From an uncultured Bacteroidota bacterium (lineage in GTDB: Bacteria > Bacteroidota > Bacteroidia > Flavobacteriales > Flavobacteriaceae): 35,119 nucleotides of DNA. The first letter of the stretch is position 1; every line of letters begins with the position of its first letter. Location: NCBI GenBank assembly GCA_902608795.1, contig CACLPI010000011.1, positions 1 through 35,119 of the forward strand, in the 5' to 3' direction. A model generated the notes under the pieces. The model searched no databases, was not told the origin of the DNA, and worked only from the letters and a program-made list of their open reading frames with translations. Shown here piece after piece: positions 4,172-12,457 of this stretch. Position numbers and translations under genes: made by a program.

Positions 4172-5884
4172 CTATCTAAATCTATATTTTTTTCTTTTTC
4201 TTGATGATTTGCTGGAATGATATTTTTTATTAGAATTTCTTCTGTCTTTTCTTCTCATCGATGGTTTTTGTTCAAATTCAGATGACTCTACTAAAAATAA
4301 ATCATTTCCTTTAAAATCAATTTTTTTAATATTTTTTATAAAATCTTCTTTATGATCTTGATCAATTTCAAAAAACGTTTGATTCCTGCTTAATTCAATT
4401 TTTCCAATTTCAATACTGTTAGATTTCAAAGCTCTATTTACGATTGAGATAATATCTAATGGAGTTGCCCTGTGTTTTCTTCCAATATTAATAGAGAAAC
4501 CTGTTAATGATTTTCGATTCCTATCACCCCTTTTAGAGTTTCTTTTATCTTTTGATCTTTTAGAAATAAGCTTATTTGATTCTTTATAATATTTTAAAAA
4601 TCTATTAAATTCAGCAGATACAAATCTTTTTATTAATTCTTCTCTACTTAGCCACTCGAGTTTTTTGTATATATTATCTAAGAAAGGTCCAATTTGTTTT
4701 TCATCAACATCAATATTTTCAATTTTATCTATTAGCTTATACAACTGATTTGAGCATATTTCGTTGCCAGTTGGGACCTCTTTAGGAATGAATTTTATAG
4801 CCCCTTTTTTCTCGATAGATTTTATTTTTCTTCTCTCACTATCATTAGAAATAGCAATTGAAATTCCGCTTTTTCCAGCTCTAGCTGTTCTTCCACTTCT
4901 ATGAACATAAACCTCTGGATCGTCTGGAAGAGAATAATTAATTACATGTGTGATATCATCAACATCTAAACCTCTTGCAGCAACATCAGTTGCAATTAGT
5001 ATCTGTAAAGACTTATTTCTAAACCTTTGCATTACTTCATCTCTTTGATTCTGAGAAAGGTCTCCGTGAATTGCATCAGCATTATAGCCTTCAGCCATGA
5101 ACTTATTGGCTATGTCTTTGGTATGCCTTTTTGTTCTACAGAAAATGATTCCGTAAATATTTGGATTAAAATCAGCTATTCTTTTTAATGCTTCATATTT
5201 ATTTCTTGAACTTACATTGTAAATATGATGCTCAATATTTTTTGCGGTTGAATTTACTTTAGAAACGGTTATTTCTTTAGCATCTCTCATATATTTTTTT
5301 GAGATACTTTTAACTTCTTTAGAAATTGTTGCTGAAAACAACATTGTTTGTCTATTTGATGAGGTTTTATCCAAAATAAAATCTAAATCATCCTTAAACC
5401 CCATACTGAGCATTTCATCTGCCTCATCAAGAATTACCTTATTAACTATTTCAAGTTTTAAATTTTTCCTTTTTAACAAATCTTTAGTTCTTCCTGGCGT
5501 TCCAACTACAATTTGAACTCCTTTTTTTAATGATTTAATTTGTGTTTCAATATTTGTACCTCCGTAAACTGATATAAGCTTAACCCCTTTAACATATTTT
5601 GAATAGGATTCTAAATCTTTACAAATCTGAATACATAATTCACGAGTTGGACATAATATAATTACTTGAACATTTTTATTTTCAACATCAACTTGTTGAA
5701 TGGCGGGTAACCCAAAAGCAGCTGTTTTCCCTGTACCTGTTTGAGCAAGCGCAATCAGATCTTCATTCTCTGTGAGTAAAAACGGAATTGATTCTTTCTG
5801 AACTTCTGTTGGCTTTTTAAACCCAAGTTCTTCAATTGCTTTACACAATTCATTATTTACACCTAATTCTTTAAAGTCCGTCAT
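4172..5884 (-). CDS. DEAD-box ATP-dependent RNA helicase (DeaD/CsdA-like)
   Basis: This 570-residue helicase unwinds RNA duplexes, typically in ribosome assembly or RNA decay in the cold. All family motifs are present in order: the Q-motif (F4, Q29), motif I AQTGTGKT (47-54), Ia PTREL (79-83), GG and TPGR (129-132), DEAD (153-156), SAT (184-186), then ATDVAARGLD and HRSGRTARAGKSG in the second RecA domain. A linker leads to a DbpA-type RNA-binding domain (about 465-540; KHRATPLDIISIVN..), followed by a very basic tail rich in Arg, Lys and Ser. That layout matches DeaD rather than RhlE. The ATG at 5884 is 18 bases from a likely -7 box and gives a complete Q-motif. It is divergent from the trp operon and convergent with the DUF1624 gene. 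Confidence 0.94.
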   Translation of the reverse strand: MTDFKELGVNNELCKAIEELGFKKPTEVQKESIPFLLTENEDLIALAQTGTGKTAAFGLPAIQQVDVENKNVQVIILCPTRELCIQICKDLESYSKYVKGVKLISVYGGTNIETQIKSLKKGVQIVVGTPGRTKDLLKRKNLKLEIVNKVILDEADEMLSMGFKDDLDFILDKTSSNRQTMLFSATISKEVKSISKKYMRDAKEITVSKVNSTAKNIEHHIYNVSSRNKYEALKRIADFNPNIYGIIFCRTKRHTKDIANKFMAEGYNADAIHGDLSQNQRDEVMQRFRNKSLQILIATDVAARGLDVDDITHVINYSLPDDPEVYVHRSGRTARAGKSGISIAISNDSERRKIKSIEKKGAIKFIPKEVPTGNEICSNQLYKLIDKIENIDVDEKQIGPFLDNIYKKLEWLSREELIKRFVSAEFNRFLKYYKESNKLISKRSKDKRNSKRGDRNRKSLTGFSINIGRKHRATPLDIISIVNRALKSNSIEIGKIELSRNQTFFEIDQDHKEDFIKNIKKIDFKGNDLFLVESSEFEQKPSMRRKDRRNSNKKYHSSKSSRKRKKYRFR

Positions 5885-5901
5885 TAACTTAATTAATCGT
5901 G

Positions 5902-5931
5902 CAAATGTCGACTATTTAATTCGTTATTCAA
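5902..5931 (-). promoter_or_regulatory. Likely promoter of the DEAD-box helicase gene
   Basis: On the minus strand a TTG (complement of 5929-5931) lies 19 bases before GACATTTG (complement of 5902-5909), followed by C. This matches the Bacteroidetes consensus TTG-N17-23-TAnnTTTGY at all fixed positions except the first T of the -7 box. Transcription would begin near 5898, leaving a leader of about 14 bases. This is motif-based inference. Confidence 0.45.
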
Positions 5932-5955
5932 TCAAAAAAAATAGATTAAAATTTT

Positions 5956-5985
5956 TTCATTTAAAATAATAGATTAGTATATTTA
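5956..5985 (+). promoter_or_regulatory. Likely promoter of the trp leader and operon
   Basis: TATATTTA (5978-5985) agrees with TAnnTTTG at all fixed positions but the last. TTC (5956-5958) lies 19 bases upstream, one base from the TTG of the -33 box. If this is the promoter, transcription starts near 5989, only a couple of bases before the ATG of the leader peptide (5991). No better -7 box is visible between the helicase start and the leader peptide. Confidence 0.4.
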
Positions 5986-5990
5986 CAGTA

Positions 5991-6047
5991 ATGAAAAAAT
6001 TGCAATTAAATATGTGGTGGTGGATACATGAAATATTCATTTCGTGA
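5991..6047 (+). CDS. trpL: trp operon leader peptide with three consecutive Trp codons
   Basis: ATG at 5991 opens an 18-codon frame reading MKKLQLNMWWWIHEIFIS and ending at TGA 6045-6047. Codons 9-11 (6015-6023) are TGG TGG TGG; random occurrence of this in a very AT-rich intergenic stretch is unlikely. It lies 26 bases before an intrinsic terminator and 122 bases before trpE, the classical arrangement for ribosome-mediated attenuation. Scarce charged tRNA-Trp would stall a ribosome at 6015-6023, whereas complete translation would bring it to the stop codon. The stop codon lies inside the 5' strand of a potential antiterminator (6042-6052). The peptide itself probably has no other function. 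No Shine-Dalgarno sequence is visible. Confidence 0.85.
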   Translation: MKKLQLNMWWWIHEIFIS

Positions 6048-6091
6048 GGTAGTCGCTATATTTTAATTTGAGAAAAAGCTTATCATCACGA
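6042..6091 (+). promoter_or_regulatory. Putative trp antiterminator helix
   Basis: Bases 6042-6047 (TCGTGA) pair with 6086-6091 (TCACGA). After a bulged A6085, 6048-6052 (GGTAG) pair with 6080-6084 (TTATC) using two G-U pairs, giving about eleven pairs. This helix takes up most of the 5' arm core and the first two bases of the 3' arm of the terminator, so the two structures exclude each other. Its 5' strand holds the leader peptide stop codon, so a ribosome that finishes the leader masks it and lets the terminator form. I paired it by hand and have no computed energy. Confidence 0.6.
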
Positions 6092-6106
6092 TAAGCTTTT
6101 TTTTTT
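6073..6106 (+). terminator. trp attenuator (intrinsic terminator)
   Basis: AAAAAGCTTATC (6073-6084) and GATAAGCTTTTT (6090-6101) form a perfect twelve-pair stem with a five-base loop ATCAC. The T-run covers 6097-6106. It lies between the leader peptide stop and trpE, so it would end transcription before the operon when tryptophan is plentiful. There is no upstream rightward gene it could otherwise serve. Confidence 0.9.
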
Positions 6107-6138
6107 ATTCATGATTAGTTTTAGTTTGTTTTTTTAAA

Positions 6139-6156
6139 GGGGGTGTTAAAGCCCCC
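6139..6156 (+). promoter_or_regulatory. GC-only stem-loop just before trpE
   Basis: GGGGG (6139-6143) pairs with CCCCC (6152-6156) around the eight-base loop TGTTAAAG. This is a strikingly GC-rich stem in AT-rich surroundings. It ends 13 bases before the trpE ATG and is not followed by a T-run, so it is not a terminator. It could protect the processed mRNA end or set the spacing for initiation; its function is unknown. Confidence 0.5.
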
Positions 6157-6169
6157 ATTAAAAGTAAAA

Positions 6170-7567
6170 ATGAAAAAATTTAAATTAAATACATACAAAA
6201 AGAAATTTTTAGTAGATACTATTACCCCTGTTAGTGTTTACCTAAGAATAAGAGATAAATACCCAAATAGCTTACTGTTGGAAAGTAGTGATTACAATTC
6301 TAACAATAATAGCTTTTCATATATATGTTTTAATCAAATTGCATCTTTTGAAGTTTTTGAAAATATTCTTTCAACTAAATTCCCAGATAATTCAAACTAT
6401 GAGATTTCTTCTTCTAAAGCTAATTTAATTCACGAACTACAAAATTTTATCAATCGGTTTGATGTTGAATTATCTGATCTACCATTTATTAATAATGGCC
6501 TTTTTGGATATACTTCTTATGACGCAGTAAAATATTTTGAGGATGTAGAAATTAGTATGAAAGATAATTCTATAAAAATTCCAGAAATGTACTATGGCAT
6601 CTACAAAAACATTATTGCAATTAACCACTTCAAGAACGAGGCATATATTTTTTGTCATTCTTTAAATGAAGAAAATAATATTGATAAAATATATCAACTT
6701 ATTAAAATATTAACCTCAAGTAATTATAAATTTAGTTCCATTGATGAGATAAACTCAAATCTAACTGATAAAGAATTTGTAAAACAAGTCAATTTTGCTA
6801 AGAATCATTGTAAAAGGGGAGATGTTTTTCAGCTAGTTTTATCAAGGCGATTTTCTCAAAAATTTTCAGGAGATGATTTCAATGTATACAGAGCATTAAG
6901 AAGTATAAACCCTTCACCATACCTTTTTTATTTTGATTATGGAGATTATAAAATTTTTGGTAGTTCTCCCGAGGCCCAATTGGTAATCAAGGAAAAGCAA
7001 GCTGAAATTCACCCTATTGCCGGAACATTTAAAAGAACTGGAAATGAAACAGAGGATAAACTACTTGCTGAAAAATTGTTAAATGATCCAAAAGAAGGAA
7101 GTGAGCATGTAATGCTAGTTGATCTGGCCAGAAACGATTTAAGTAGAAATTGTGAGTTTGTTAAAGTTGAAAAATTCAAAGAAGTTCAATATTTCTCTCA
7201 TGTTATTCATTTAGTGAGTAAAGTAACCGGCAAGCTAGAAAATAATGATAAAAATTTAAAAATAATTGCTGATACTTTTCCTGCTGGAACTCTTTCCGGA
7301 GCACCAAAACACATGGCTATGACGCTAATTGAAAAGTACGAAAAAACCAACAGGTGTTATTATGGAGGTGCAATTGGTATATTAGGTTTTAATGGAGATT
7401 TTAATCATGCAATAATGATAAGAACTTTCTTAAGTAAAAATAACTTTTTGTATTGGCAAGCAGGTGCAGGTATCGTAGATAAGTCTGATGAAAATAATGA
7501 ATTACAAGAGGTTTATAATAAATTAAATGCATTAACAAAGTCAATTAAAATGGCAAATAAATTATAA
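6170..7567 (+). CDS. trpE: Anthranilate synthase component I
   Basis: TrpE uses chorismate and ammonia from TrpG to form anthranilate, the first committed step to tryptophan. I take the ATG at 6170 (465 residues). An in-frame GTG at 6143 would add nine residues, but it lies inside a GC-only stem and the added residues look unlike the family N-terminus. The feedback motif L-L-E-S-S (36-40) that binds tryptophan is intact, so end-product inhibition is expected on top of attenuation. The chorismate-binding domain shows G-D-V-F-Q-L-V-L-S-R-R, F-G-S-S-P-E, P-I-A-G-T, A-R-N-D-L-S-R, F-P-A-G-T-L-S-G-A-P-K and the C-terminal Q-A-G-A-G-I-V. PabB is the usual alternative for such proteins, but the LLESS motif and the operon settle it. 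Confidence 0.96.
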   Translation: MKKFKLNTYKKKFLVDTITPVSVYLRIRDKYPNSLLLESSDYNSNNNSFSYICFNQIASFEVFENILSTKFPDNSNYEISSSKANLIHELQNFINRFDVELSDLPFINNGLFGYTSYDAVKYFEDVEISMKDNSIKIPEMYYGIYKNIIAINHFKNEAYIFCHSLNEENNIDKIYQLIKILTSSNYKFSSIDEINSNLTDKEFVKQVNFAKNHCKRGDVFQLVLSRRFSQKFSGDDFNVYRALRSINPSPYLFYFDYGDYKIFGSSPEAQLVIKEKQAEIHPIAGTFKRTGNETEDKLLAEKLLNDPKEGSEHVMLVDLARNDLSRNCEFVKVEKFKEVQYFSHVIHLVSKVTGKLENNDKNLKIIADTFPAGTLSGAPKHMAMTLIEKYEKTNRCYYGGAIGILGFNGDFNHAIMIRTFLSKNNFLYWQAGAGIVDKSDENNELQEVYNKLNALTKSIKMANKL

Positions 7568-7568
7568 A

Positions 7569-8132
7569 ATGAATAAAGTTTTAGTAATAGACAATTACGA
7601 TAGTTTTACTTATAATTTGGTACACCTAATTAAGGAAATGAATCATGATGTTACCGTTATTAGAAATGATAAGTTTGATTTAGATGATATTTCAAAATTT
7701 GATAAAATTTTATTATCACCTGGCCCTGGGATCCCAGATGAGGCAGGTTTATTAAAAAAAGTAATTTACAAATATGGTCCAACAAAAAGTATTCTTGGAA
7801 TATGTCTCGGCCAACAAGCAATCGCAGAAGTTTATGGAGGATCTCTGAAAAATTTAGATGAAGTTTTTCATGGAATTTCTACCAATATAAATTTATGTGT
7901 AGATGACGAATCAATTTTTCATGGAATCAAAAATAATTTTCATGCAGCCAGATACCACTCATGGGTGGTTGATAAAATTTCTGAAAATCTAGAAATAACA
8001 TCTGTTGATGATAATAATCAAATTATGTCAATAAGACACTCAAAATATGATGTTAGAGGGGTTCAGTTTCACCCCGAATCTATTTTAACTCCGTATGGAA
8101 AAAAAATTATAGAAAACTGGATAAATAATTAA
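7569..8132 (+). CDS. trpG: Anthranilate synthase component II (glutamine amidotransferase)
   Basis: This 187-residue class I glutaminase supplies ammonia to TrpE. The nucleophile C79 lies in G-I-C-L-G-Q-Q, where many relatives have His instead of the first Gln. The other triad members H168 and E170 are in F-H-P-E-S. The substrate-loop motif S-P-G-P-G-x-P is at 50-56. It begins one base after the trpE stop codon, pointing to coupled translation. In many bacteria the same protein also serves PabB for folate synthesis; that cannot be decided here. Confidence 0.95.
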   Translation: MNKVLVIDNYDSFTYNLVHLIKEMNHDVTVIRNDKFDLDDISKFDKILLSPGPGIPDEAGLLKKVIYKYGPTKSILGICLGQQAIAEVYGGSLKNLDEVFHGISTNINLCVDDESIFHGIKNNFHAARYHSWVVDKISENLEITSVDDNNQIMSIRHSKYDVRGVQFHPESILTPYGKKIIENWINN

Positions 8133-8133
8133 A

Positions 8134-9129
8134 ATGAAAGAAATTTTAACAAGATTAATAAATCATGAAAATTTAGATAAAAAAGAATCTAAAGAAATTC
8201 TTATCGACATTTCAAATGGAATATATAATCATGAACAGGTTGCTTCTTTTTTGACAGTCTTTATGTTAAGAGGAACATCAACTAATGAGCTTATTGGATT
8301 TCGAGATGCATTACTTGAATTATGTATAAAATTGGACTTTAGCGATTTTCAAACAATTGATTTATGTGGTACTGGTGGTGATAATAAAAACACATTTAAC
8401 ATTTCAACTTTGGCATCTTTTGTTACCGCTGGTGCTGGAATTCATGTTGCAAAACATGGTAATTATTCTGTCTCCTCAGCATGCGGTTCATCAAACGTAT
8501 TAGAATTTTTTGGGGTAAAATTTACAAATAAAGAAGACTTTTTAAAAACCTGTTTAAATAAGGCTAATATATGTATTTTACATGCTCCATTATTTCATCC
8601 TGCTATGAAAAACGTTGCACCTGTGAGAAAGGCATTAGGAATGAAAACATTTTTCAATATTTTGGGGCCTTTAGTAAATCCTTGTCGCCCAAACAATCAA
8701 CTTGTTGGTGTATATGGGCTGGATATTCTTAGACTTTATAAGTCTGTTTTTGAAACAACTAAAGGATTTAAATATTCAATTGTTCATTCTTTAGATGGAC
8801 ATGATGAAATTTCACTTACAGGAGATTCAAAAGTTGTTTTAAACAATAATGAGTTTTTGATAAAACCAAAAGATTTTAATTCTGAAATAATTTCATCAGA
8901 AAAAATTTTTGGGGGCAATACTATTAAAGAGGCTGCATCAATTTTTCATGATGTTCTAAATTTGAGAGCTACAAAAGAACAAACTGATGTGGTTCTTGCA
9001 AATTCTGCTTTGGCAATATCTACGGTCAAAGAAATTGGAATATCTGATGCTTTTGAAATAGCAAAAGACTCATTACTAAATAAAAAAGCTCTTAAATCAT
9101 TTAATACATTAATTGAATTAAGTCAATGA
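8134..9129 (+). CDS. trpD: Anthranilate phosphoribosyltransferase
   Basis: TrpD joins anthranilate to phosphoribosyl pyrophosphate. The 331-residue length is normal and it is not fused to TrpG, unlike in enterobacteria. The PRPP-binding motif D-L-C-G-T-G-G-D (about 81-88) is followed by K-x-T-F-N-I-S-T, then V-A-K-H-G-N-Y-S-V-S-S-x-C-G-S. The M-x-N-V-A-P-V-R-K and F-N-I-L-G-P-L-x-N-P motifs are also present. It starts one base after trpG and its end overlaps trpC by four bases (ATGA). Confidence 0.96.
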   Translation: MKEILTRLINHENLDKKESKEILIDISNGIYNHEQVASFLTVFMLRGTSTNELIGFRDALLELCIKLDFSDFQTIDLCGTGGDNKNTFNISTLASFVTAGAGIHVAKHGNYSVSSACGSSNVLEFFGVKFTNKEDFLKTCLNKANICILHAPLFHPAMKNVAPVRKALGMKTFFNILGPLVNPCRPNNQLVGVYGLDILRLYKSVFETTKGFKYSIVHSLDGHDEISLTGDSKVVLNNNEFLIKPKDFNSEIISSEKIFGGNTIKEAASIFHDVLNLRATKEQTDVVLANSALAISTVKEIGISDAFEIAKDSLLNKKALKSFNTLIELSQ

Positions 9130-9911
9130 ATATTCTAAATAAAATAATTCGTCATAAAAAAAATGAGATTGATTATCTCAAACTAAATTATTCTATTAGT
9201 CAATTAGAGTCTTCTTCACTTTTTGAAAGAGAAACTATTTCACTAAAAAGTAAATTAATATCAAGTAATTCTGGAATAATCGCTGAGCATAAAAGAAAAT
9301 CTCCATCAAAAGATATCATTAACAATAATCTAAAAATACAAGATGTCATTCGAGGATATCAGGATGCTGGAGTTTGTGGAATATCGGTACTAACAGACTT
9401 AGATTTCTTTGGTGGAACAAATGATGATTTAAAAATCACTAGAGAAATTTTTGAAGGTCCAATTTTAAGAAAAGAATTTATTTTAGATGAATTTCAAATT
9501 ATAGAATCAAAATCCTTTGGTGCTGATGTAATTTTATTAATCGCTTCAGTTTTAACCAAACAAGAAGTTTTTAAGCTATCTAAGCTAGCCAAAGAATTGA
9601 ACTTAGAAGTATTAGCTGAGGTCCATAATGAAAATGAATTGGACAAGGTATTAAATCCACACATAGATTTGATTGGAGTTAATAATAGAGATCTAAAAAT
9701 ATTTAAAACAGATATTAATATTTCAAAAAATATTTCAAAAAAAATACCTGCTGATTTTTTAAAGATTTCAGAAAGTGGGATTTATAATTATAATGTTGTA
9801 AAAGATTTAAGGGAATATGGATTTAAAGGTTTTTTAATAGGAGAATATTTTATGAAAACAATAAATCCTGGGTTTACTGCAAGCGAGTTTATAAAAAAAA
9901 TCGAAGTATGA
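9126..9911 (+). CDS. trpC: Indole-3-glycerol phosphate synthase
   Basis: TrpC closes the indole ring from carboxyphenylaminodeoxyribulose phosphate. It is a 261-residue TIM barrel and stands alone rather than fused to TrpF. Catalytic motifs seen are I-I-A-E-x-K-R-K-S-P-S (about 50-60), the strand I-S-V-L-T-D, L-R-K-E-F-I, the acid in L-A-E-V-H, G-V-N-N-R-D-L and the phosphate-binding S-E-S-G-I. Start and stop overlap trpD and trpF by four bases each, so translation is likely coupled along the transcript. Confidence 0.96.
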   Translation: MNILNKIIRHKKNEIDYLKLNYSISQLESSSLFERETISLKSKLISSNSGIIAEHKRKSPSKDIINNNLKIQDVIRGYQDAGVCGISVLTDLDFFGGTNDDLKITREIFEGPILRKEFILDEFQIIESKSFGADVILLIASVLTKQEVFKLSKLAKELNLEVLAEVHNENELDKVLNPHIDLIGVNNRDLKIFKTDINISKNISKKIPADFLKISESGIYNYNVVKDLREYGFKGFLIGEYFMKTINPGFTASEFIKKIEV

Positions 9912-10516
9912 AATTAAAGATTTGTGGCATGAAATATAAAGATAATATCAGTTTAATTTCAAAATTAAACCCTGATTATATCGGCTTTATATTTTATAAG
10001 AATTCAAAAAGATTTTTCGATAATGAGCCAGTACCAAGGATTAAAAAAAATATAAAGAAAGTTGGTGTTTTTGTAAATCCTGAAATTGAATACTTAAATC
10101 TAATTGTAAAAAAACATAATCTAGATTTGGTACAACTACATGGAAATGAGACACCTGATTTTATATCAAAAATTCGAGATGTTAAAATAATAAAGGCATT
10201 TTCAATTGATAAAAATTTCAATTTTAATTTAATTGAAAATTACATATCATGTGATTATTTTCTTTTTGATACTAAAGGAAAATTACCGGGAGGTAATGGT
10301 ATCTGTTTTGATTGGGCAATTTTAACTAATTATAAATTTAATAAACCATATTTCTTAAGTGGGGGTATTGGTTTACATAATATAAACGAATTAAAAGAAT
10401 TTTTTAATTCTAAAATTTCAAAAAACTGTTTTGGAGTTGATATCAATAGTCATTTTGAAATTGACTACGCAAAAAAAGATTATCAATTAATTAAAAATTT
10501 TAAAAATGAGTTATAA
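9908..10516 (+). CDS. trpF: Phosphoribosylanthranilate isomerase
   Basis: TrpF catalyses the Amadori rearrangement before TrpC. The 202-residue barrel begins with K-I-C-G (catalytic C6). It contains G-F-I-F-Y-x-x-S-x-R, V-Q-L-H-G-N-E, the catalytic Asp in F-L-F-D-T-K-G, G-G-N-G-x-x-F-D-W and S-G-G-I-G-x-x-N-I. The usual G-x-x-S-G-V-E near the end is G-V-D-I-N-S here, a small change at the C-terminal phosphate loop region. It overlaps trpC by four bases and trpB by eleven. Confidence 0.95.
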   Translation: MKLKICGMKYKDNISLISKLNPDYIGFIFYKNSKRFFDNEPVPRIKKNIKKVGVFVNPEIEYLNLIVKKHNLDLVQLHGNETPDFISKIRDVKIIKAFSIDKNFNFNLIENYISCDYFLFDTKGKLPGGNGICFDWAILTNYKFNKPYFLSGGIGLHNINELKEFFNSKISKNCFGVDINSHFEIDYAKKDYQLIKNFKNEL

Positions 10517-11690
10517 TGTAAATGCTAAAGGATATTATGGAGAGTTTGGAGGTGCATATATTCCAGAAATGCTCTTGCACAATATTGATGAGCTTAAAGA
10601 AAATTATATTAAAATAATTAGTGATGATAGCTTTCAGAAAGAATTTAATCAATTACTTAAAGATTACGTTGGCAGACCATCTCCATTATATTTTTCAAAA
10701 AATTTATCAGAAAAATATTCAGCTAAAATATATTTAAAAAGAGAAGATTTAAATCATACAGGAGCACATAAAATTAATAACACAATAGGACAAATAATTC
10801 TTGCAAAAAGATTAAAAAAATCCCGAATTATTGCTGAAACTGGAGCAGGACAGCATGGAGTTGCTACAGCTACAGTTTGTGCTTTAATGGGTTTAAAATG
10901 TATTATATATATGGGTGCTACTGACGTTAAAAGACAAGCTCCCAATGTTGCAAGAATGAAAATGTTAGGAGCCGACGTTATTGCTGTAACGTCAGGAAGT
11001 TCAACTTTAAAAGATGCAACAAATGAAGCTATGAGAGATTGGATTAACAATCCAATTGATACTCATTATATTGTTGGAAGCGTTGTTGGACCCCATCCTT
11101 TTCCTGATATGGTAGCTAGATTTCAGTCTATTATTTCAAATGAAATTAAAGAACAACTACTCGTTGTTGAAGGAAGAAATTATCCAGATTATGTAATTGC
11201 CTGTGTTGGCGGAGGCAGTAATGCAGCTGGAACCTTTTATGATTATTTGGATGATGAAAGAGTGAAAATTATTTGTGTTGAAGCATCTGGAAAAGGAGTA
11301 AATTCTGGAAAATCAGCTGCAACTACAAAATTGGGTAAAACTGGAATTATTCATGGAAGCAAGACTTTACTTATGCAAACCAATGATGGTCAAATTACTG
11401 AACCCTATTCAATTTCAGCTGGATTAGATTATCCTGGAATTGGACCTATGCATGCAAATTTATTTACCACAGGAAGGGGAGAATTTATTTCAATTGACGA
11501 TGACGAAGCGATGTCAGCCGGATTACAATTATCACAAATTGAAGGAATTATTCCTGCCATCGAAACATCACATGCTTTAGCTGTATTTAAACATAAAAAA
11601 TTTAATTCACATGATGTAATTGTTTTAAACCTTTCGGGAAGAGGTGATAAAGATCTTGAGAATTATATTAATTACTTTAATATACAATGA
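10506..11690 (+). CDS. trpB: Tryptophan synthase beta subunit
   Basis: TrpB condenses indole with serine using pyridoxal phosphate. The 394-residue protein is of the standard TrpB1 type. It starts G-x-Y-G-E-F-G-G-A-Y-I-P-E, then R-P-S-P-L-Y, K-R-E-D-L-N-H-T-G-A-H-K-I-N-N with the cofactor lysine K89, A-E-T-G-A-G-Q-H-G with the indole-side Glu, and the phosphate loop G-G-G-S-N-A. S-A-G-L-D-Y-P-G-I-G-P and S-G-R-G-D-K-D follow near the end. The eleven-base overlap with trpF and four-base overlap with trpA are tight even for this operon. Confidence 0.97.
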   Translation: MSYNVNAKGYYGEFGGAYIPEMLLHNIDELKENYIKIISDDSFQKEFNQLLKDYVGRPSPLYFSKNLSEKYSAKIYLKREDLNHTGAHKINNTIGQIILAKRLKKSRIIAETGAGQHGVATATVCALMGLKCIIYMGATDVKRQAPNVARMKMLGADVIAVTSGSSTLKDATNEAMRDWINNPIDTHYIVGSVVGPHPFPDMVARFQSIISNEIKEQLLVVEGRNYPDYVIACVGGGSNAAGTFYDYLDDERVKIICVEASGKGVNSGKSAATTKLGKTGIIHGSKTLLMQTNDGQITEPYSISAGLDYPGIGPMHANLFTTGRGEFISIDDDEAMSAGLQLSQIEGIIPAIETSHALAVFKHKKFNSHDVIVLNLSGRGDKDLENYINYFNIQ

Positions 11691-12457
11691 ATAGAATTGA
11701 TAAGACCCTTAAAGAAAGAGATAATATTTTATCTATCTATTTCACTGCTGGATTCCCTGAATTAAACAGTACAACTGAAATTATAAAAAGTCTTGAATCT
11801 GCTGGTGCTGATATGATTGAAATTGGTTTACCATTTAGTGATCCATTAGCTGACGGACAAACCATACAAATGAGTTCAAAAATTGCCTTGGATAATGGCA
11901 TGTCTACAAAAATACTGTTTGAACAACTCAAAATGATAAGAAATCATGTGAATATCCCTTTAATAATTATGGGCTATTTTAATCCTATTTTTCGATTTGG
12001 CGTTGAAGATTTTTGTAAAAAATGTAGTGAAGTTGGAATCGATGGTCTCATAATTCCAGATCTTCCAATAAACATTTATCTTTCAGATTACAAAAGAATA
12101 TTTAAAAAATATGAACTATATAATATGTTTTTAATAACTCCTCAAACTAGTCAAAAACGAATAGAATATATTGATAAAAATAGTAATGGATTTATTTATG
12201 TTGTAAGCTCATCTAGTATAACAGGATCTACAAATTATTTTGATGAAAAAAGTATTAATTATTTTAAAAGATTACAAAAAATGAAATTATCAACTCCAAA
12301 AATTATTGGTTTTGGTATCTCAAATAATGAAAATTTTATAATTGCTAGTAAATATTCACAGGGTTGTATTGTGGGTAGCGCTTTCATAAAATACATCCAA
12401 AATAGTGGAATAAATTCTATCAATAAATTTATCAATAAAATAAAAACCGGAAATTAA
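11687..12457 (+). CDS. trpA: Tryptophan synthase alpha subunit
   Basis: TrpA cleaves indole-3-glycerol phosphate and channels indole to TrpB. The 256-residue barrel has the catalytic pair E45 (in M-I-E-I-G-L-P-F-S-D-P-L-A-D-G) and D56. It also has the G-Y-F-N-P-I strand, G-x-I-I-P-D-L-P, the phosphate-side S-S-S-x-T-G, G-F-G-I-S-N and G-S-A-F-I-K. It is the last trp gene; the stop is followed by a convergent gene 31 bases on. Confidence 0.96.
   Translation: MNRIDKTLKERDNILSIYFTAGFPELNSTTEIIKSLESAGADMIEIGLPFSDPLADGQTIQMSSKIALDNGMSTKILFEQLKMIRNHVNIPLIIMGYFNPIFRFGVEDFCKKCSEVGIDGLIIPDLPINIYLSDYKRIFKKYELYNMFLITPQTSQKRIEYIDKNSNGFIYVVSSSSITGSTNYFDEKSINYFKRLQKMKLSTPKIIGFGISNNENFIIASKYSQGCIVGSAFIKYIQNSGINSINKFINKIKTGN

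Follow-up and report, generated by a model that had tools for sequence, protein, structure and literature searches.

The DNA upstream of trpE in the window, by which we mean the whole 35,119-nt stretch from an uncultured flavobacterium that was analysed, very probably carries a ribosome-mediated transcription attenuator of the trp operon, and we regard this element as a divergent member of the Bacteroid-trp RNAs (Rfam RF01692). The computation shows the parts of the element, their conservation in relatives, and RNA folding states that exclude each other. The attenuator itself is expected biology; the value of the observation lies in the breadth of its conservation and in the evidence on coupling between transcription and translation.

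Leader gene and trp operon

The leader gene (MKKLQLNMWWWIHEIFIS) is located at 5991..6047 on the forward strand. It consists of 18 codons, with the sensing codons TGG TGG TGG (6015..6023, forward strand) as codons 9-11 and a TGA stop codon at 6045-6047. The translation bears out the coordinates that the preliminary description had given for the 18-codon frame and its Trp run. The first ATG is taken as the start codon because an inner Met codon before the three Trp codons is absent in two of the nearest relatives (L005 and L006). The frame is thus short and carries neighboring codons for the amino acid that the downstream pathway makes, as expected for a trpL-type leader.

The controlled operon begins with trpE (6170..7567, forward strand; ATG at 6170), and an alternative start in the list of ORFs (GTG at 6143) was judged less likely. 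It is followed by trpG, trpD, trpC, trpF, trpB, and trpA (7569..12457, forward strand), giving the order trpEGDCFBA downstream of the leader. All seven genes matched NCBIfam models, and five of the seven passed the curated cut-off of the fitting model. The scores of trpE (424.8 bits against a cut-off of 517.7) and trpF (142.2 against 216) are below the cut-offs, but the identities of both are little in doubt, since the set of trp genes is complete and in order. On the other side, 106 bases separate the leader ATG at 5991 from a divergent neighbor on the minus strand, a gene for a DEAD-box-helicase-like protein (4172-5884).

Two features near the trpE start should be mentioned. The first bases of the leader gene (5991-6011) and of trpE (6170-6190) are identical at 19 of 21 positions; the agreement in the seven nearest relatives is 16-17 of 21 in five, 15 in L006, and 12 in L005. 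This likeness may reflect a common A-rich initiation context or an old duplication. In addition, a hairpin with five G and five C bases (6139-6156) is found between the terminator and the trpE start, and it is also present with altered sequence in the seven nearest relatives, L001-L007 (GAGAG/CTCTC in L005). A weak match to the Termite-leu family (6114-6176, 24.8 bits against a cut-off of 51, E 0.0022) overlies this hairpin.

Terminator, antiterminator, and protector stem

Folding places an intrinsic terminator at 6070..6106 on the forward strand, with 15 pairs (6070-6084 with 6090-6104), a 5-nt loop, and a run of ten T bases (6097-6106). The perfect twelve-pair terminator claimed earlier is present within it (6073-6084 with 6090-6101), and the lengthening to 15 pairs is due to the U-run lying opposite an A-run. 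The 5′ strand of the antiterminator, TCGTGAGGTAG (6042..6052, forward strand), contains the leader stop codon and is identified by folding and by the complementarity of seeds in relatives, as described later. Its 3′ strand (6080..6091, forward strand) is common to the 5′ arm of the terminator, the loop, and the first bases of the 3′ arm. The helix formed by these two strands consists of 11 pairs with A6085 bulged, and it excludes the terminator in folding, as the preliminary description had proposed.

In the minimum-free-energy fold, a protector stem (6012-6020 with 6053-6061, forward strand) encloses an inner hairpin (6027-6034 with 6039-6046) and partly conceals the antiterminator strand in ribosome-free RNA. 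The free energy of the region 5985-6110 (126 nt) is −35.7 kcal/mol, compared with −18.9 kcal/mol (sd 2.9) for shuffled sequences (z −5.7), and none of the 200 shuffles is as good.

In trpL of E. coli, adjacent Trp codons are located near codon 10, and the protector, antiterminator, and terminator helices share strands. The element in the window resembles this enterobacterial leader in encoding a leader peptide with adjacent Trp codons and in the sharing of strands between helices. It differs from E. coli trpL in that the predicted 5′ UTR is 0-1 nt long and in that the stop codon lies within the antiterminator strand, 22 nt from the terminator.

Folding with the ribosome at different positions

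The leader RNA was folded from 5990 at increasing lengths, with the ribosome footprint (−16 to +14 from the start of the A-site codon) kept unpaired. When the RNA ends at 6092, the antiterminator forms with a probability of 0.94 if the ribosome has stalled at either the first or the third Trp codon; the value is 0.12 without a ribosome and 0.00 when the ribosome occupies the stop codon. With the RNA end at 6096, stalling still keeps the antiterminator at 0.81-0.90, and the terminator reaches 1.00 without a ribosome and 0.87 when the stop codon is occupied. An exclusive choice between antiterminator and terminator by ribosome position, the hallmark of a trpL-type leader, is thus found in silico for RNA ends from 6088 to 6096. 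At RNA ends of 6098 and beyond, the terminator displaces the antiterminator in every state, the stalled ribosome included. Since the terminator wins in all states at full length, the switch in the window would work only through a kinetic decision. About the last 10-14 nt of nascent RNA lie inside the polymerase. We infer that the polymerase would be beyond the end of the T-run (6106) before the RNA in the stalled state could refold.

The same kind of nascent-RNA folding was applied across species to 161 leaders, comprising 86 from the family set and 75 from the wide set (best 80 of 279 loci), both of which are defined below. When the ribosome occupies the first Trp codon, at least four terminator bases are paired to the spacer in all 86 family leaders and in 74 of the 75 wide-set leaders. 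With the ribosome at the stop codon, the corresponding numbers are 2 of 86 and 7 of 75. The measure in the stalled state is weak by itself, because shuffled spacers often reach four bases too: they do so in 67% of family and 58% of wide-set trials with stalling at the first Trp codon, and in 32% and 22% when the ribosome occupies the stop codon. In a stricter joint test, at least four bases must be paired in the stalled state and fewer than 1.5 at the stop codon; 59 of 86 family and 56 of 75 wide-set leaders pass, compared with 90 of 430 and 106 of 375 for shuffled spacers. Without a ribosome, at least four antiterminator bases are still reached in 26 of 86 family and 10 of 75 wide-set leaders, indicating that termination by default in the absence of translation is not general and differs by species.

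Relationship to Bacteroid-trp RNAs

At the Rfam cut-offs, which are thresholds set by curators and not biological traits, only two tRNAs are found in the window, with no T-box or other riboswitch. RF01692 aligns over its full length with 5971-6084 at 37.6 bits (E 0.0048 for 301 bases and 4227 families), which is below its curated cut-off of 49 bits. A relaxed search of 5900-6200 gives 22 matches, among which RF01692 is the top by bits and is placed on the leader, though the E-value of Termite-leu (0.0022) is lower than that of RF01692. The Rfam Trp_leader family (RF00513) is found neither in the two gathering matches of the window nor in these 22 relaxed matches.

Among 13 wide-set loci tested, L006, whose trpE is 77% identical, is the only one that passes the RF01692 cut-off (51.2 bits). 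Among the 60 fetched loci of the family set, 38 pass it: 17 of 20 next best, 3 of 20 middle, and 18 of 20 lower-end matches to trpE. We built a model, R1, from 37 of these 38 loci, omitting L140, in which the leader had not been detected. R1 is mostly a sequence model, with 10 pairs that belong to the terminator. It matches 5970-6104 of the window with 76.1 bits (E 1.6e-15), while the next best place in the genome scores 25.7 bits (E 0.014). On the basis of this homology to accepted members, we call the window element a divergent member of Bacteroid-trp. It also lies where such RNAs are found, upstream of tryptophan-synthesis genes in Bacteroidota, and shares with them the leader with Trp codons, the stem, and the beginning of the terminator. 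The switch between antiterminator and terminator is outside the RF01692 model, because the Rfam consensus stops at the first bases of the terminator.

In a draw of 296 genomes from the phylum searched with strict Infernal filters, RF01692 matched 29, of which 27 are above the cut-off; 27 of the 29 belong to the family of the window and two lie outside it. The same search gave no match in the window's own genome or in any genome outside the class. In a separate draw of 158 genomes, the screen for a leader plus terminator was positive in all 19 trpE-bearing genomes that belong to the class and lie outside the family. These results suggest that the Bacteroid-trp model of Rfam catches only part of the real distribution.

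No published account of trp leader attenuation across the phylum was found in the open-licence full text of PMC. A study of attenuation in proteobacteria by Vitreschak and co-workers from 2004 reportedly predicts some attenuators in Bacteroidetes/Chlorobi. Bacteroid-trp is tabulated by Weinberg et al. as a probable cis-regulatory RNA of Bacteroidetes (2010; PMC2864571). A Bacteroid-trp RNA resembling the Trp leader is described as conserved before the trp operon of Flavobacterium psychrophilum (PMC6414381), and "strong clues" of leader-peptide attenuation ahead of amino-acid operons are mentioned for the same species (PMC9723704). Small ORFs in 5′ UTRs that recall leader peptides are described in Bacteroides thetaiotaomicron (PMC7366714). 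The relevant passages of these three reports give no detailed mechanism and do not deal with uncultured marine lineages (PMC9723704, PMC6414381, PMC7366714). The attenuator is therefore known in kind, and its novelty is low. The special compact variant seen in the preliminary description does not hold as such: the design is common before trpE in the class and is catalogued as RF01692 (PMC2864571).

Conservation of the leader and terminator in relatives

The screen for leaders looks for at least two TGG codons within four codons, a start codon no more than 15 codons upstream, and a terminator downstream. For the family set, 149 Flavobacteriaceae genomes (148 genera) were surveyed; 136 have a trpE match, and 90, one per genus, were examined. 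These 90 are the window, the 29 next best matches as loci, and the 60 fetched loci (20 next best, 20 middle, and 20 from the lower end). The wide set was drawn from named genome contigs and comprises the best 80 of 279 loci that had been located by matching the trpE peptide. A leader with a terminator is present before trpE in 86 of the 90 genera, compared with none of 900 dinucleotide shuffles, and in 75 of the 80 wide-set loci, compared with 3 of 800 shuffles. The preliminary description had named a lack of conservation in relatives as what would overturn it; the Trp codons and the terminator are clearly kept.

Some of the misses are explained by the loci themselves. In the family set, the contig of L095 starts within the leader, the Trp run and terminator being visible by eye; a leader with an imperfect terminator is visible by eye in L140, which scores 54.3 bits against RF01692; and the leader of L118 lies further upstream, moved by an insert, as seen via L267. 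No leader is seen by eye in the fourth, L142. In the wide set, L008 and L035 are located at contig ends, with the Trp run visible in L008, and none is seen in L014, L074, and L075.

We also drew 158 genomes from the phylum, 139 of which have a trpE match: 35 in the class of the window (16 in its family) and 104 outside the class. The settings of this screen are slightly wider (450 nt upstream and loops of up to 10 nt). All 35 trpE-bearing genomes of the class are positive, 32 of 32 in the wider screen, two of which also belong to the family set, and L081, L084, and L106 by the screen used for the family and wide sets. Outside the class, 35 loci were examined and 21 are positive, including 18 with three or more Trp codons; among 700 shuffles, 3 are positive with two or more Trp codons and none with three. 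In the other 14 of these 35 loci no leader plus terminator was found. One of the 21 positives, L261, which has two Trp codons and a TTG start, looks false. The outside-class leaders (L232-L266) mostly carry WWW and also WAWFW, WWLW, and WGW, and their sequence type is unlike that of Bacteroid-trp.

Some relatives show unusual features. In the Flavobacteriaceae genome that contains L118 and L267, an ORF that looks by eye like the GIY-YIG type lies between the attenuator terminator and trpE; the ends of the insert are the inverted sequences TTTCCGCGAAGGCGGAAA and TTTCCGCCTTCGCGGAAA, and the leader upstream is intact. In L017 (Maribellus maritimus), a second, tandem attenuator is seen by eye ahead of the WWW leader, in the 400 nt that precede trpE. 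Its extra leader encodes MKKLNTIWLPWWGLLT, ending at a stop codon, and the strand TTAGGAG is complementary to CTCCTAA in its own terminator; the WWW leader and terminator then follow. In L211 (genome G199), of the same family, one in-frame TAA occurs inside the trpE match, and the leader and terminator look intact.

The positions of the Trp codons bear on how tryptophan is sensed. Three Trp codons are present in 74 of 86 family leaders and two in the other 12. The earliest of them is codon 9 in 68 of the 86, and in the wide set (best 80 of 279 loci) it is codon 9 or 10 in 59 of 75. A terminator with a competing helix before trpE would fit equally well if tryptophan were sensed by a TRAP-like protein, a Trp riboswitch, or a tRNA-Trp T-box, the leader frame being incidental. 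This reading is highly improbable: in-frame runs of two or three TGG codons are found in 86 of 90 genera, beginning at codons 8-11 in 81 of 86 leaders, while the flanking residues are variable. The window has no riboswitch or T-box at the Rfam cut-off, and the genome, which is 65% complete, has no Pfam match to TRAP (PF02081; B. subtilis control positive). A search of the same genome for trpR (PF01371) likewise gave no match, with positive E. coli and B. subtilis controls. The absence of TrpR and TRAP from a 65% complete genome is not proof.

Complementarity between spacer and terminator

We define the seed as the longest exact complement between the spacer, counted from 9 nt past the last TGG, and the terminator hairpin. 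The mean seed length in the family is 6.59 nt, compared with 5.84 nt when terminators are swapped between species and 4.00 nt when the spacer is shuffled. Swapping is of little help in the family, because one main seed, TCGTGA, is common to its sequences. In the wide set (best 80 of 279), the mean seed length is 6.09 nt against 4.29 nt for swapped and 4.07 nt for shuffled sequences. Seeds of at least 6 nt occur there in 57% of own pairs and in 11% of swapped pairs, indicating that the strand and the terminator change together. Examples are TCGTAAAC, CCGAGAGTT, GGATTCAG, and GCTGTGTA, each of which is complemented in its own terminator. The mean energy of the spacer/terminator duplex, a blunt test, is −9.4 kcal/mol for own, −7.6 kcal/mol for swapped, and −7.3 kcal/mol for shuffled pairs.

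The position of the seed should be noted. Among seeds of at least 5 nt, the distance from the last TGG is 16-19 nt in 72 of 79 family leaders and 15-19 nt in 48 of 56 wide-set leaders. Overlap between the stop codon and the seed occurs in 36 of 79 family and 31 of 56 wide-set leaders; in the others the stop codon lies either upstream of the seed (21 and 16, respectively) or downstream of it (22 and 9). The spacing from the Trp codons is therefore steadier than the overlap with the stop codon. The idea that the switch consists of one strand that overlaps the stop codon consequently stands in part: such overlap is common, but it is not universal.

Covariation, which had been suggested as a check on both helices, was evaluated in a family alignment of 98 leaders (86 from the family set and 12 from the wide set). 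In the terminator, 97% of cells are standard pairs, and 54 cells with double changes are distributed over 10 of 12 pairs, compared with 2-7 cells in slid controls. The antiterminator pairs are standard in 82% of cells, against 20-49% in slid controls, but their covariation is weak (20 double-change cells against 5-17 and 6 pairs against 4-8 when slid). The inner protector hairpin is not conserved in the family, as 50% of cells are paired, within the 28-57% of slid controls.

These data also bear on a reading without regulation, in which the terminator merely stops stray transcription and the leader encodes a short functional peptide. An open leader frame with a plausible start would suit this reading. 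Peptides in the family set, however, range from 13 to 25 residues, and length and sequence both vary apart from the Trp run. The complementarity between the spacer and its own terminator exceeds that of shuffled or swapped pairs, and the terminator is located between the leader and trpE in 86 of 90 family and 75 of 80 wide-set loci (best 80 of 279). Such a peptide without regulation is, in our estimation, very hard to credit.

Predicted promoter and translation start

A probable sigma-A −7 box, TATATTTA, is located at 5978..5985 on the forward strand. It agrees with the consensus TAnnTTTG except that the last base is A, not G. It is the sole TAnnTTTR on the forward strand between 5885 and 5991, though the window contains about as many matches to this pattern as chance would give (160, with 163 expected). 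A distance of 4-5 nt from box to ATG is kept in the seven nearest relatives (L001-L007). In the relevant sections of published reports, the sigma-A box of F. psychrophilum is placed at −12 to −5 (PMC9723704), and probable promoters of F. johnsoniae have 4 or 5 nt between the box and the transcript start, with leaders longer than 10 nt in 87% of predicted transcripts (PMC6847099). Since the box in the window ends 5 nt before the ATG, the transcript is predicted to start at 5990 or 5991 with a 5′ UTR of 1 or 0 nt, that is, the leader RNA probably begins at the AUG or one base before it. The preliminary description had remarked that tight coupling is needed in a phylum that mostly lacks Shine-Dalgarno initiation; a very short 5′ UTR may answer the concern that this raises.

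A survey of boxes, based on the closest box and the earliest ATG within 15 codons, finds a strict box within 60 nt in 79 of 86 family leaders and 24 of 75 wide-set leaders. The distances from box to ATG in the family fall into two groups, 32 leaders with 4-10 nt and 43 with 12-22 nt. As a control, 305 ordinary ORFs of the same loci were examined, 32 of which have a strict box. Distances of 4-6 nt are found in 15 of 79 family leaders and in 6 of 32 control ORFs, so strict leaderlessness is not enriched against this small control, and the idea of a near-leaderless start as a special adaptation is partly rejected. Distances of up to 14 nt, which correspond to 5′ UTRs of about 10 nt or less, are found in 39 of 79 leaders and 7 of 32 control ORFs. 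Short 5′ UTRs thus seem to be over-represented among leaders, judging from these predicted boxes, and we regard this as a lead.

A promoter could also be located downstream of the attenuator. The attenuator would then be genuine but minor in this organism, with a large share of the transcription coming from a second promoter located between the terminator and trpE. In the window, about 65 nt separate these two, and this spacer holds one TAGTTTTA box (6116-6123) in addition to the hairpin, which would suit such a promoter. In many relatives, however, the corresponding spacer is only 7-30 nt long and leaves little room, and the box at 6116 ends in A, not G, such matches being at chance level in the window. 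We consider such a second promoter unlikely.

Proposed mechanism and implications

We infer the promoter, the translation of the leader, the stalling, and the regulation in cells from the features described above, and the following mechanism is proposed. The transcript would begin at the leader AUG or one base earlier, and a ribosome would load on this near-terminal AUG without a Shine-Dalgarno sequence. When charged tRNA-Trp is scarce, the ribosome would stall at codons 9-11, covering the RNA up to about 6029-6035 and opening the protector stem. The freed strand 6042-6052 would then pair with 6080-6091 as the latter emerges, the terminator would be blocked, and the polymerase would enter trpE. 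When tryptophan is plentiful, the ribosome would reach the stop codon at 6045-6047 and occupy the antiterminator strand, so that the terminator would form and transcription would end at the T-run. Without translation, the protector stem would mask the strand, and termination would be the default in the window. The enterobacterial type of attenuation logic claimed in the preliminary description is supported by the anatomy, the exclusive RNA states, and the conserved Trp codons and terminator.

Such a switch needs the ribosome to be within tens of bases of RNA polymerase, and its parts are found in all 35 class genomes with trpE. This implies coupling of transcription and translation at the trp operon of bacteria that initiate without Shine-Dalgarno sequences. 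We further put forward, tentatively and as a possibility somewhat short of even, that leader-peptide attenuation of trp is ancestral and near universal in the phylum, extending beyond the class, and that in a large part of Flavobacteriaceae the leader AUG lies at or within a few bases of the 5′ end. If this is true, tight coupling would operate in a phylum without Shine-Dalgarno initiation, and the very short 5′ UTR would load the ribosome in time.
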